Shown here: positions 48,970-52,009 of the stretch, piece by piece
Layout: each line of letters starts with the position of its first letter
Position numbering within the stretch: the stretch's first letter is position 1
Assembly: GCA_945865545.1 (NCBI GenBank)
Contig: CAMBEQ010000004.1
Span: 1 to 64,000, forward strand
Length of the DNA: 64,000 nt
Origin: Sediminibacterium ginsengisoli
Lineage (GTDB): Bacteria; Bacteroidota; Bacteroidia; Chitinophagales; Chitinophagaceae
Direction of reading: 5' to 3'
Made by a program: the position numbers and the translations under genes
Notes under the pieces: model-generated
Told to the model about the DNA's origin: nothing
The model's input: the letters and a program-made list of their open reading frames with translations, nothing else
The model's database searches: none

Positions 48970-49006
48970 ACTAAATTATTTAGTTAATATTGCTAATAAA
49001 TTTAGT
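48970..49006 (+). promoter_or_regulatory. Inverted repeat upstream of umuD, candidate operator
   Basis: ACTAAATT (48970-48977) is mirrored by AATTTAGT (48999-49006), ending 3 bases before the umuD ATG. A further near-dyad centres on TTAATATTGCTAA. It lies where an SOS-type operator would be expected, but I cannot match it to a known LexA box. Confidence 0.4.
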
Positions 49007-49009
49007 TTT

Positions 49010-49453
49010 ATGTCATTTATAGATAGAGATCCAGGAGAAGGAATAGCTACACAGCAGATTAATAAGAACTATCAATCGGGTCAAATTGTACAGGCCAATG
49101 CCACCGGTTTTGGCGCGGCTTCGGACGATTTTATGGAAAGAGGTATTGATTTGAACGAACAACTCATTCGTAACAAACCTGCTACTTTTTTCTTTCGGGT
49201 GAACAGCGATGCCATGTTGGGTGCCGGCATTCACATTGGCGATATTTTAATTGTAGATAGAAGTTTGCCTGCTAGTTCTGGCAAAGTAGTGGTAGCAGTT
49301 TTGAATGGCGAATTTTTAGTGCGCCGTTTACAAATACAAGAACACAGTATTAGTTTGGTTCCAGAAAATAAAAGATATGGCACCATTCAAGTGGCTCAAC
49401 TAGAACAGTACAGCACTTGGGGCATTGTTAGTTTTGTAATACATAGTTTATAA
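49010..49453 (+). CDS. umuD: UmuD-like protein with substituted catalytic residues
   Basis: 147 residues from the ATG at 49010; the longer in-frame reading to 48860 overlaps the previous gene and is not needed. It aligns along its full length with E. coli UmuD: ATGFGAASDDFMERGIDLNE matches the cleavage-site region (Thr32-Gly33 in place of Cys24-Gly25), and FFRVNSDAMLGAGIHIGD matches the nucleophile loop. There the S24 nucleophile Ser (GDSM in UmuD, Ser60) is Ala68 (SDAM). The general-base Lys97 (FTVKKL) is Arg105 (FLVRRL). Codons GCC and CGC are unambiguous. So self-cleavage as in UmuD is not expected. It ends exactly where umuC begins. Confidence 0.88.
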   Translation: MSFIDRDPGEGIATQQINKNYQSGQIVQANATGFGAASDDFMERGIDLNEQLIRNKPATFFFRVNSDAMLGAGIHIGDILIVDRSLPASSGKVVVAVLNGEFLVRRLQIQEHSISLVPENKRYGTIQVAQLEQYSTWGIVSFVIHSL

Positions 49454-50740
49454 ATGCAAGCCATTGTAGATTGTAACAGTTTTTATTGTTCCTGCGAACG
49501 TCTTTTTCAACCCCAACTACAAAATGTTCCAGTAGTGGTACTTAGTAACAATGATGGTTGTATTGTATCACGTTCCGACGAAGCCAAACAATTAGGTATT
49601 GGCATGGCCGTTCCTTATTTTCAAGCAAAAGAATTAATTGAAAAAAATAAAGTGCATGCTTTTTCATCTAACTATCACTTATACGGCGATCTCAGTTGGC
49701 GTGTCATGGAAACTATGAGACATTTGCTACCACCGGGTTGTGTGGAAGTGTATTCGGTAGACGAAGCCTTTTTAGATTTAAAACATATTCCCGCTGAGGC
49801 ATTACAAGATTTTTGCAACCTCTTAAAAAATAAAATAGAAACCTGGACAGGCATTTCTGTTTCTATTGGCGTAGGGCCCAATAAAGTACTTAGCAAAGTA
49901 GCCAACCGATTGGCTAAAAAAGATAAAATAAAAACAGGATGTATTGTAATACTTAATGATACTAAAAAAATTCAAGTGGCTTTACAACAAACACCTATAG
50001 ATGATATTTGGGGTATTGGCTTTAGCTATAGTGAAAAATTAAAAACCTATGGTATACACACGGCCTATGCACTTAGCATTAAAGACCTTAGTTGGGGCAA
50101 ACGATTTTTAGGAGGCGTTACCGGCATGAGATTGCTAAGAGAATTAAAAGGAGCACAAAGTCATTCCATGCAAGCACCTCGCACCGAAAAAAAAATGATT
50201 GCCACCACGCGTATGTTTGGTCGCGAAGTCACTGAATGGCAAGAGATAGAAGAAGCCCTTGCCACTTATGCTACACGAGCCGCAGAAAAATTAAGAAGGC
50301 AACATAGCGCCGCCTGCGGAGTAAGTGTTTTTTTACTTAAAAAAGCACCCATCTCTATAGAGGCTTCCCATTATAATAGAGGTCGTCAAGCAAGCGGCTA
50401 CTCTGTGCTAGACAACCCTACTCATCTTACCCCCGATATTATTAAAGCGGTGGTCGCCCTTGGCAAAAGTCTATTTGAACCAGGAGAGACTTATAAAAAA
50501 GCAGGCGTTATTTTAAGCGATTTTGTACCCGATAATGCCCTTCAAACCAACTTATTCGTTGCACCCGCCGATGCAAGACGTAAAAAACTAATGAACGTAA
50601 TTGACAATATGAATGCTGCCTACCGCAATGATATTTTGAAGTTTGGCACCAGCGGCACCCAAAAAAACTGGAAAATGCGCAGCGAAAGACGTAGCAAACG
50701 CTATACCACACGCTGGCAGGAGCTTTGCCTAGTACGGTAA
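49454..50740 (+). CDS. umuC: UmuC, Y-family DNA polymerase V catalytic subunit
   Basis: 428 residues, full UmuC length. Palm-domain metal ligands are present: Asp6 in AIVDCNSFYCSCERLF and Asp103-Glu104 in YSVDEAFLDL. Other blocks are SNNDGCIVSRSDEAK, VSIGVGPNKVLSKVANRLAKK, the helix-hairpin-helix region WGIGFSYSEKLKTYGI, and the little-finger and C-terminal DUF4113 region (KKLMNVIDNMNAAYRNDI). It performs translesion synthesis with UmuD'. The ATG directly follows the umuD stop, so they are coupled. Because the partner UmuD seems unable to self-process, activation may differ from E. coli. Confidence 0.94.
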   Translation: MQAIVDCNSFYCSCERLFQPQLQNVPVVVLSNNDGCIVSRSDEAKQLGIGMAVPYFQAKELIEKNKVHAFSSNYHLYGDLSWRVMETMRHLLPPGCVEVYSVDEAFLDLKHIPAEALQDFCNLLKNKIETWTGISVSIGVGPNKVLSKVANRLAKKDKIKTGCIVILNDTKKIQVALQQTPIDDIWGIGFSYSEKLKTYGIHTAYALSIKDLSWGKRFLGGVTGMRLLRELKGAQSHSMQAPRTEKKMIATTRMFGREVTEWQEIEEALATYATRAAEKLRRQHSAACGVSVFLLKKAPISIEASHYNRGRQASGYSVLDNPTHLTPDIIKAVVALGKSLFEPGETYKKAGVILSDFVPDNALQTNLFVAPADARRKKLMNVIDNMNAAYRNDILKFGTSGTQKNWKMRSERRSKRYTTRWQELCLVR

Positions 50741-50792
50741 AAGCTGGTGGAAAACCATTGCATAAAAATTCGTAGAAATGGTTTCGCTGATG

Positions 50793-50800
50793 TATTTTTG
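50793..50800 (+). promoter_or_regulatory. TAnnTTTG promoter -7 element before the carB half gene
   Basis: TATTTTTG fits the Bacteroidota -7 consensus and ends 15 bases before the ATG at 50816. It lies in the 75-bp gap after umuC, suggesting independent transcription. No -33 match at the usual spacing. Confidence 0.42.
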
Positions 50801-50815
50801 CCCAATTTAACACCT

Positions 50816-52009
50816 ATGAGCAAGAAGCTGAACTCTAACGAATCTATCTCCTCTTCCAAGAAAAAAATAATTGTTTTAGGCAGTGGTCCTAACCGCATTG
50901 GTCAAGGTATTGAGTTTGATTATTGTTGTGTTCATGGATTATTGGCCGTTAAAGAATCTGGCTATGAAGCCATCATGGTCAACTGTAATCCAGAAACCGT
51001 ATCGACCGATTTTGACATGGCCGATAAATTATACTTCGAACCTGTTTTTTGGGAACACCTTTGGGAAATTATAGAATTAGAAAAACCAGAAGGCGTTATT
51101 GTACAGTTAGGAGGACAAACAGCCTTAAAATTAGCGAAACGCTTAAGCGAAAGAGGTATTAAAATAATAGGCACTTCCTTTGATAGTTTAGACATTGCAG
51201 AAGATAGAGGTCGCTTTAGTGATTTACTAAAAGAATTAAATATTCCTTACCCAGATTATGGAACTGCTTACACTGCTGAAGAAGCCATTGAAGTGGCTAA
51301 TAAAGTAGGCTACCCTGTTTTAGTAAGACCTAGCTATGTAATTGGCGGACAAAGAATGCGTATTGTAATTAATGATGCAGAAGTAGAAACTGCAGTAGTA
51401 AGTATATTAAAACATATCCCAAATAATAAAATATTAATCGATCATTTCTTAGATCGTTGTCAAGAAGCAGAAGTAGATGCTATTTTTGATGGGGAAACTT
51501 TTCACATCATGGGCGTGATGGAACATATTGAACCTGCAGGAATTCATAGCGGAGACAGTAATGCAGTTTTGCCTGCATTCAACCTTACTCCATTAATTGT
51601 AGAAAAAATGGAATTTTATAGCGAGAAAATTGCAAGAGCTTTAAATATTAAAGGACTCATCAATATTCAATTTGCTATTAAAGATGGTAAAGTGTTTGTC
51701 ATTGAAGCCAACCCAAGAGCTTCAAGAACCACTCCGTTTATTGCAAAGGCATACCAAATACCTTATTTGAATATTGCTACCAAAGTAATGTTGGGCGCCA
51801 ATAAATTAACCGAATTCACCATGGAGAAAAAACTAGAAGGCTACGCGATTAAAGAGCCTGTATTTAGTTTTGATAAATTTCCTGGTGTCAATAAAGAATT
51901 AGGACCAGAGATGAAGAGCACAGGAGAAGCCATTCGTTTCATCAAAGACTTACGCGACCCTTACTTCCGCAACTTATACAAAGAGCGTTCGATGAACTTA
52001 AGTCGTTAA
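50816..52009 (+). CDS. carB: Carbamoyl-phosphate synthase large subunit, C-terminal half only
   Basis: 397 residues from the ATG at 50816. It begins at the point equivalent to about residue 550 of E. coli CarB: KKIIVLGSGPNRIGQGIEFD, MVNCNPETVSTDFD and GVIVQLGGQTALKLAK (pre-ATP-grasp domain), then the second ATP-grasp with VRPSYVIGGQRM, DHFLDRCQEAEVDAI and FVIEANPRASRTTPF. It ends soon after GPEMKSTGEAIRF, so the allosteric MGS-like domain is missing. The first half (carboxyphosphate synthesis) is not upstream: umuC is. A Ser/Lys-rich leader of about 18 residues and an own promoter suggest a genuine split gene rather than a broken one. Split CarB is known from some archaea and Aquifex. Confidence 0.88.
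   Translation: MSKKLNSNESISSSKKKIIVLGSGPNRIGQGIEFDYCCVHGLLAVKESGYEAIMVNCNPETVSTDFDMADKLYFEPVFWEHLWEIIELEKPEGVIVQLGGQTALKLAKRLSERGIKIIGTSFDSLDIAEDRGRFSDLLKELNIPYPDYGTAYTAEEAIEVANKVGYPVLVRPSYVIGGQRMRIVINDAEVETAVVSILKHIPNNKILIDHFLDRCQEAEVDAIFDGETFHIMGVMEHIEPAGIHSGDSNAVLPAFNLTPLIVEKMEFYSEKIARALNIKGLINIQFAIKDGKVFVIEANPRASRTTPFIAKAYQIPYLNIATKVMLGANKLTEFTMEKKLEGYAIKEPVFSFDKFPGVNKELGPEMKSTGEAIRFIKDLRDPYFRNLYKERSMNLSR

Follow-up and report, generated by a model that had tools for sequence, protein, structure and literature searches.

A UmuD type of the Chitinophagaceae lacks its self-cleavage dyad and probably serves DNA polymerase V uncut

The UmuD homolog encoded in a 64,000-nucleotide stretch of the Sediminibacterium ginsengisoli genome (contig CAMBEQ010000004.1; here called the window) lacks both catalytic residues needed for self-cleavage, and we propose that it is probably a pseudo-autoprotease, that is, an S24-fold accessory subunit of polymerase V (Pol V) that works uncut at full length. 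The loss is not peculiar to one protein: it characterizes a UmuD type, or clade, and further losses are scattered outside it. UmuD self-cleavage is described in the available text of PMC3901139 as a switch from a nonmutagenic to a mutagenic state, and family members carrying this UmuD probably control DNA damage mutagenesis without that switch.

The features of the locus are collected in the table. The sequence-only reading of this DNA had placed Ala at the position of the E. coli nucleophile Ser60, Arg at that of the general base Lys97, and Thr-Gly at the cleavage site, and all three assignments held. A phmmer search of PDB sequences paired residues 33 to 144 of the window protein with E. coli UmuD' (1umu_A; E 2e-22). 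Both catalytic positions, and everything between them, align without gaps: ASGDSM in E. coli faces VNSDAM in the window protein (Ser60 to Ala68), and FTVKKLQ faces FLVRRLQ (Lys97 to Arg105). Because other assemblies, 97 to 99% identical (L033 to L046), have the same Ala and Arg residues and the changes are shared across the relatives of the type, chance and assembly artifact are excluded as explanations.

Features of the umuDC locus in the window
Feature	Positions	Strand	Basis or remark
SOS box 1, CTAA-ATTAT-TTAG	48971..48983	+	Motif CTAA-N5-TTAG
SOS box 2, CTAA-TAAAT-TTAG, 22 bp after box 1	48993..49005	+	Motif CTAA-N5-TTAG
umuD-like CDS, S24 domain without catalytic dyad, 147 aa	49010..49453	+	NF007621, PF00717, phmmer against PDB sequences
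N-terminal arm, residues 1-32, retained	49010..49105	+	Low model confidence; positions 17-32 conserved across relatives
Vestigial cleavage dipeptide Thr32-Gly33 (ACC GGT), within conserved ANATGFGAA	49103..49108	+	Equivalent to E. coli Cys24-Gly25
Ala68 codon GCC, position of nucleophile Ser60	49211..49213	+	Alignment to E. coli UmuD'
Arg105 codon CGC, position of general base Lys97	49322..49324	+	Alignment to E. coli UmuD'
umuC CDS, 428 aa, Y-family polymerase with C-terminal DUF4113	49454..50740	+	Profile matches, catalytic residues
UmuC Arg391, RecA-NT-like motif	50624..50626	+	Mostly Gly in UmuCs paired with Ser/Lys UmuDs

Peptidase_S24 is the sole Pfam domain of the window UmuD (PF00717; 82.3 bits). 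The NCBI model NF007621, "autoproteolytic subunit," gives 130.8 bits where 110 is required, and because this cut-off is passed, annotation would give the protein this name and mask the loss of the dyad. The AlphaFold2 model reached a mean pLDDT of 80.2 when viral-contig UmuDs were included in the alignment versus 40.5 with relatives of this type alone; residues 51 to 147 are mostly above 90, and residues 1 to 35 are of low confidence. The best Foldseek match of the model was UmuD' (1ay9; E 3.2e-11; TM-score 0.90 by target length and 0.67 by query length). Pfam, phmmer, and the structure model with Foldseek thus agree on an S24/LexA-like C-terminal fold, as the earlier reading had claimed when it described the rest of the fold as kept. 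Its further statement that full length and coupling to an intact umuC are retained was also confirmed, the protein having 147 residues with its arm and umuC starting on the base after the umuD stop.

We defined the UmuD type as having at least 47% identity to the window protein, a line that we set ourselves and near which L136, L234, and L236 fall. It comprises 195 loci, 173 of them distinct, counting the window protein (L003) and leaving out L001, a duplicate of the window; L235 and L073 (incomplete) were left out of the codon, conservation, and tree work, and L235 was also left out of the arm-length count. Arg105 is present in all 172 readable distinct rows, and position 68 is Ala in 159 of the 173 distinct rows, Ser in 11, Thr in 2, and Cys in 1. 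The co-occurrence of Ala and Arg among Chitinophagaceae UmuDs, proposed earlier as a check, is therefore what we found. When 294 genomes of the family were searched, 180 had a UmuD-like match (146 strong, with E up to 1.3e-28, and 34 weak) and 114 had none. Every one of the 112 family genomes read with this type has Arg105; they consist of 30 plus 4 read by loci (the window's own genome included) and 78 from 80 stretches, two stretches being second copies. In the GTDB r220 scan, of which the best 80 of 238 confirmed loci were read, matches include S. ginsengisoli DSM 22335 and many Chitinophagaceae metagenome-assembled genomes. A single UmuD-like match was obtained in 121 of the 146 strong-match genomes by a search that misses LexA-like proteins.

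Since some members of the family carry Ser/Lys UmuDs instead, the loss characterizes a type of UmuD and does not extend to the whole family. Among 63 distinct UmuD-like rows of lower identity, drawn from the family, order, and class, 51 have Ser/Lys. The 63 mostly read AGFPSPA, G-x-S-M, and VKR at the motifs; they include two LexA-like rows (L143 and L145), both excluded from the active (Ser/Lys) conservation set. All 34 weak family genomes were read (G227 included), and 22 have a Ser/Lys UmuD. A set of 30 loci gave 20 Ser/Lys rows, 9 dyad-less rows (Arg at 105 in all 9), and 1 truncated row. On IMG/VR viral contigs, where UmuDs were picked by AGFPSPA and L[IV]..ATF-like patterns and not by dyad, the best 80 loci yielded 78 distinct UmuDs, every one of them Ser/Lys.

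Outside the family-type group and a sister family of the same order (f8), we counted 18 dyad-less rows, namely, 8 of the 63 lower-identity rows, L282, and 9 of the set of 30 loci. Arg occupies the Lys97 position in 15 of them (L131, L132, L135, L141, L144, L282, L400, L408, L409, L411, L413, and L417 to L420) and is absent there from L142, L151, and L152. The f8 UmuDs (L147, L148, L149, and L150) have Q/R and D/D as their dyad positions, a more radical loss, and they pair with UmuCs that group alongside those of the window's type. In a UmuC tree of 110 rows, the 46 UmuCs of dyad-less UmuDs from these two groups (42 family-type and 4 f8) form one split with an SH-aLRT of 98, and seven further UmuCs of dyad-less UmuDs lie elsewhere (L131, L135, L141, L142, L151, L152, and L282). 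The Ser/Lys label changes 8 times on the UmuC tree, with at least 4 changes forced by starred branches, and 3 times on the UmuD tree, with 2 forced; both are quick trees with SH-aLRT support only, and the UmuD tree has long branches. Because of these forced changes, it is likely that the dyad was lost more than once.

The gene is nevertheless preserved without its dyad. Among the window's close relatives, the median pairwise dN/dS was 0.045 for umuD (387 pairs, 57 sequences) and 0.078 for umuC (267 pairs, 54 sequences), so umuD is under strong purifying selection. In 171 rows, six Arg codons are in use at position 105 and four Ala codons are in use at position 68, which indicates that both residues are old and maintained; active rows have AAA or AAG at 105.

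Next to this gene stand two copies of CTAA-N5-TTAG, which the available text of PMC8565304 gives as the motif of the noncanonical LexA of Bacteroidetes. They end 26 and 4 bases upstream of the umuD start codon and, judged by motif alone, form a putative SOS operator. A box lies between -300 and +30 of umuD in 167 of 173 distinct relatives versus 7 of 63 other rows; for the same placement, nine control palindromes gave 0 to 9 of 173 and shuffles gave 1.6. Of the 172 relatives, 51 have at least two boxes, and in every one of these the final pair is spaced by 22 or 23 bp. By itself the motif is not enriched, with 3 matches versus 2.18 expected in the window and 60 versus 83 for a backward control in the genome; it is the position of the box and not the frequency of the motif that carries the signal.

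The genome to which the window belongs (92% complete) has two PF00717 matches, the window UmuD and a LexA-like repressor. The search for a second S24 protein that the sequence-only reading had suggested therefore turned up this repressor and no second UmuD. The LexA-like gene (L002, 606-1421) has an HTH_3 domain (41.6 bits) and an S24 match that is weak in the Pfam scan (23.1 bits) and above the cut-off in the genome PF00717 search; GDSM and YKR motifs were read in it by eye. It is itself preceded by tandem boxes 22 bp apart (L002, 569-603) that end 2 bases before its ATG, nearly the layout seen at umuD. Two boxes 23 bp apart also end 88 bases before the RecA match in this genome. We rejected the possibility that the window UmuD is itself a UmuDAb or noncanonical LexA repressor, as it has Peptidase_S24 only and no N-terminal DNA-binding domain; the HTH_3 domain resides in the genome's own LexA-like protein.

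In E. coli, the N-terminal arm is removed by UmuD cleavage. The S60A variant is noncleavable there (PMC3901139 and PMC5342242, available text), in agreement with what the earlier reading had stated of S60A. In the window's type, the arm is kept: with the start taken as the in-frame ATG that comes first downstream of the final SOS box, 27 to 33 residues precede Gly33 in 165 of 172 relatives. The mean relative entropy of arm positions 17 to 32 is 2.81 bits in 57 nonredundant dyad-less rows versus 1.59 bits in 69 active rows, a gap of which part may be sampling because the active set is taxonomically broader; for the core (positions 41 to 147), the values are 2.81 and 2.55 bits. The arm (residues 1 to 32) evolves faster than the whole protein, with a median dN/dS of 0.121 versus 0.045 among close relatives, and its conservation is thus only moderate. 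The scissile Ala-Gly or Cys-Gly bond is not present, Thr32-Gly33 standing in its place, and Ala precedes Gly in 96% of the 69 active rows. Across the 57 dyad-less rows, the old cleavage region retains Thr in 86%, Gly in 98%, and Phe in 95%. FPSP follows the cut in 99 to 100% of active UmuDs, and the corresponding residues are mostly FGAA in the window's type. Direct translation of UmuD' from an internal start was considered and rejected, as the window has no such start codon and the 172 relatives have 2 start-like codons in total within 4 codons of Gly33.

All 42 representative UmuCs of the type keep the catalytic D and DE. At the Arg391 position of the RecA-NT-like motif, 37 of these 42 have Arg (3 are gapped, 1 has Lys, and 1 has Gly), whereas Gly is found in 53 of 57 UmuCs of Ser/Lys UmuDs and in 4 of 4 f8 UmuCs; the motif names follow PMC6511836 in its available text. 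A simple clamp pattern occurs in 35 of 42 UmuCs of the type versus 42 of 57 active ones, and the UmuD-binding tail YTT occurs in 28 of 42 versus 50 of 57, some rows being incomplete. The window UmuC has both a RecA-NT-like motif and a tail resembling that of E. coli. A umuC match was present in the fetched stretch at 149 of 173 distinct loci and absent at 24, 22 of which were looked at further, and at G070 umuC lies upstream of umuD in the opposite direction; dyad-less UmuD is therefore not always found beside umuC. At several loci with no umuC match in the fetched stretch, a frame resembling a PA0069-family radical SAM gene follows the dyad-less umuD. One such gene was checked by profile (L212, 1111-2217; 464 bits), and PA0069-like frames were recognized by eye at L020, L029, L031, L153, L190, L196, L199, L215, L239, and L255. 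In the window, the open reading frame at 50747-52009 is the second half of a carbamoyl-phosphate synthase large subunit (profile positions 543 to 924 of 1058) with the C-terminal part missing; a related 578-amino-acid frame lies on another contig (C10:46127-47269), and carB looks split into separate genes.

Taken together, the near-constant arm length, the lost FPSP, and the altered UmuC motif favor adaptation to a subunit that stays uncut. Lacking both nucleophile and general base, the protein is not expected to undergo RecA-stimulated autocleavage; E. coli S60A is noncleavable (PMC5342242 and PMC3901139, available text). The sequence-only reading had argued that, if the protein cannot cut itself, Pol V must act without self-made UmuD'; the comparative data, with Arg105 in 172 of 172 rows, favor this. 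Among the options that it listed, the one in which full-length UmuD is competent from the outset agrees best with the data, given that the arm is kept, that a UmuD' start is lacking, and that the other PF00717 protein is LexA-like. In the mechanism that we propose, DNA damage would give rise to RecA filaments, and the phage-repressor-like LexA would then cleave itself. Its loss would free the tandem CTAA-N5-TTAG operators for transcription of umuDC, a fresh full-length UmuD dimer would bind the UmuC tail directly, and a RecA subunit would dock on UmuC to complete Pol V. The arm, elsewhere a removable inhibitory leader, would now be a permanent part of the subunit, and FPSP, which cleavage exposes elsewhere, would have been lost as well. 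Since a UmuD of this type could not cut itself, the timer by which cleavage delays mutagenesis in E. coli would be absent, leaving SOS transcription and RecA docking as the controls on Pol V. The absence of cleavage in the cell, competence at full length, Pol V activity, and this order of assembly are all predictions drawn from sequence comparison.

Several observations run counter to the pseudo-autoprotease reading: 11 of the 173 rows keep Ser together with Arg105 and may cleave slowly, and the conserved ANATGF may still be cut by another protease. The faster evolution of the arm and its low model confidence, the 24 loci with no umuC match in the fetched stretch, and the lower share of UmuCs with the YTT tail also weigh against it. 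In E. coli, moreover, S60A UmuD strongly lowers UV mutagenesis, so full-length UmuD is not competent there (PMC5342242 and PMC3901139, available text). It follows that either full-length UmuD is competent here, Pol V is restrained, or another protease makes UmuD'. Permanent restraint of UmuC by full-length UmuD is in our judgment unlikely, though it deserves serious attention. The SOS-induced UmuD2C would then serve in a replication checkpoint or in accurate bypass, and the mutagenic activity of Pol V would have been given up. This reading agrees with a conserved arm, as expected of an inhibitory element, and with E. coli, in which full-length UmuD prevents UmuC mutagenesis (PMC3901139) and S60A impairs UV mutagenesis (PMC5342242), as far as the available texts go. 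However, the UmuC catalytic carboxylates are intact in 42 of 42 representatives, umuC is under purifying selection, and the window UmuC keeps its RecA-NT-like motif and E. coli-like tail. Cleavage in trans at ANATGF by a housekeeping protease or the LexA-like S24 protein, such that UmuD' is still made, appears quite unlikely. The old site is indeed conserved in the proportions given above, and in E. coli a partner that has an active site is able to cut the S60A arm in trans (PMC5342242, available text). Yet there is no second UmuD in the window's own 92% complete genome, 121 of 146 strong-match genomes have one UmuD-like match, and the FPSP that is normally exposed is FGAA here. We also know of no protease that cuts at ANATGF.

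That self-cleavage persists through other catalytic residues is very improbable. Ser66 and Arg106 are nearby in the window protein and 11 of 173 relatives have Ser68, but position 106 is Arg in 88% of the 57 nonredundant relatives and in 87% of active UmuDs alike, and the confidently modeled core matches UmuD'. Ser66, which the sequence-only reading had named as a possible alternative nucleophile, was rejected because position 66 is Gly in 56% of those 57. We give almost no weight to the idea that umuD is decaying, having lost its function and accumulated neutral substitutions. In its favor, neither catalytic residue remains and the distant, sporadic homologs L142, L144, and L152 look degenerate, but the low dN/dS over 387 pairs, the SOS box in 167 of 173 relatives, and the near-constant arm length all speak against it. 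We therefore retain full-length function without cleavage as the preferred reading of the window UmuD.

A mobile or phage origin for this UmuD was considered and received no support from plasmid, phage, or IMG/VR comparisons. Among the plasmid matches listed, all below 60% identity, the best was a Ser/Lys protein from Synechocystis (49.6% identity over 80% of the query); phage matches reached 44.7% among the 25 of 63 records listed, again all below 60%. IMG/VR, searched with the window protein and with alignment A1, yielded no relative. In the open-access literature searched, we came across no description of a natural UmuD clade that lacks the dyad. A broader proposition, which we regard as evenly poised and put forward tentatively, is that most Pol V-bearing members of the family, together with the sister group of that order, use a Pol V that does not depend on cleavage. 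In it, UmuD would be a pseudo-protease, the inhibitory leader would have become a permanent functional arm, and UmuC would have been remodeled in parallel, with Gly replaced by Arg in its RecA-docking motif. Lys97 to Arg would have appeared repeatedly in other UmuDs as a way of uncoupling SOS mutagenesis from the UmuD timer. That a large group keeps umuDC behind SOS operators without the cutting machinery suggests that the switch is dispensable, and dyad-less UmuDs offer natural material for asking what the arm and its cleavage do.

Among known systems, E. coli UmuD and UmuD' (1umu, 1ay9, and 8gmt) share with the window UmuD the S24/LexA-type fold, the umuDC pairing, and the SOS operator. The window protein differs in having no Ser60/Lys97 dyad, Thr-Gly in place of Cys-Gly, FGAA in place of FPSP, and an arm that is kept. 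The laboratory mutants S60A and K97A are altered at the same positions, and in the phmmer alignment position 97 of 8gmt is Ala. These are single engineered changes, however, and S60A impairs mutagenesis, whereas both sites differ naturally (Ala and Arg) in the window's type. HumD of phage P1 is UmuD'-like, has no arm, and gives Pol V function without UmuD cleavage; the window UmuD has a 32-residue arm, and we rejected its identification as a HumD on account of that arm and of a score of 57.8 against the NF051876 cut-off of 120. The CI repressor of phage 186, which according to the available text of PMC12984324 has the S24 fold without a canonical active site, is a natural pseudo-S24 protein, but it is a repressor and not a polymerase subunit, and it matches the fold of the window UmuD model weakly (E 0.034). 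YqjX and YolD, the UmuD analogs of B. subtilis, are small Y-polymerase partners like UmuD; unlike it, they are likely monomers and have no detectable sequence homology to UmuD in the available account (PMC6511836). In models, their N-terminal arm enters the Y polymerase (PMC12926913, available text). Because the published Pol V model in the same text sets the N terminus of UmuD' near the UmuC active site, the longer arm of the window UmuD would need a different placement.
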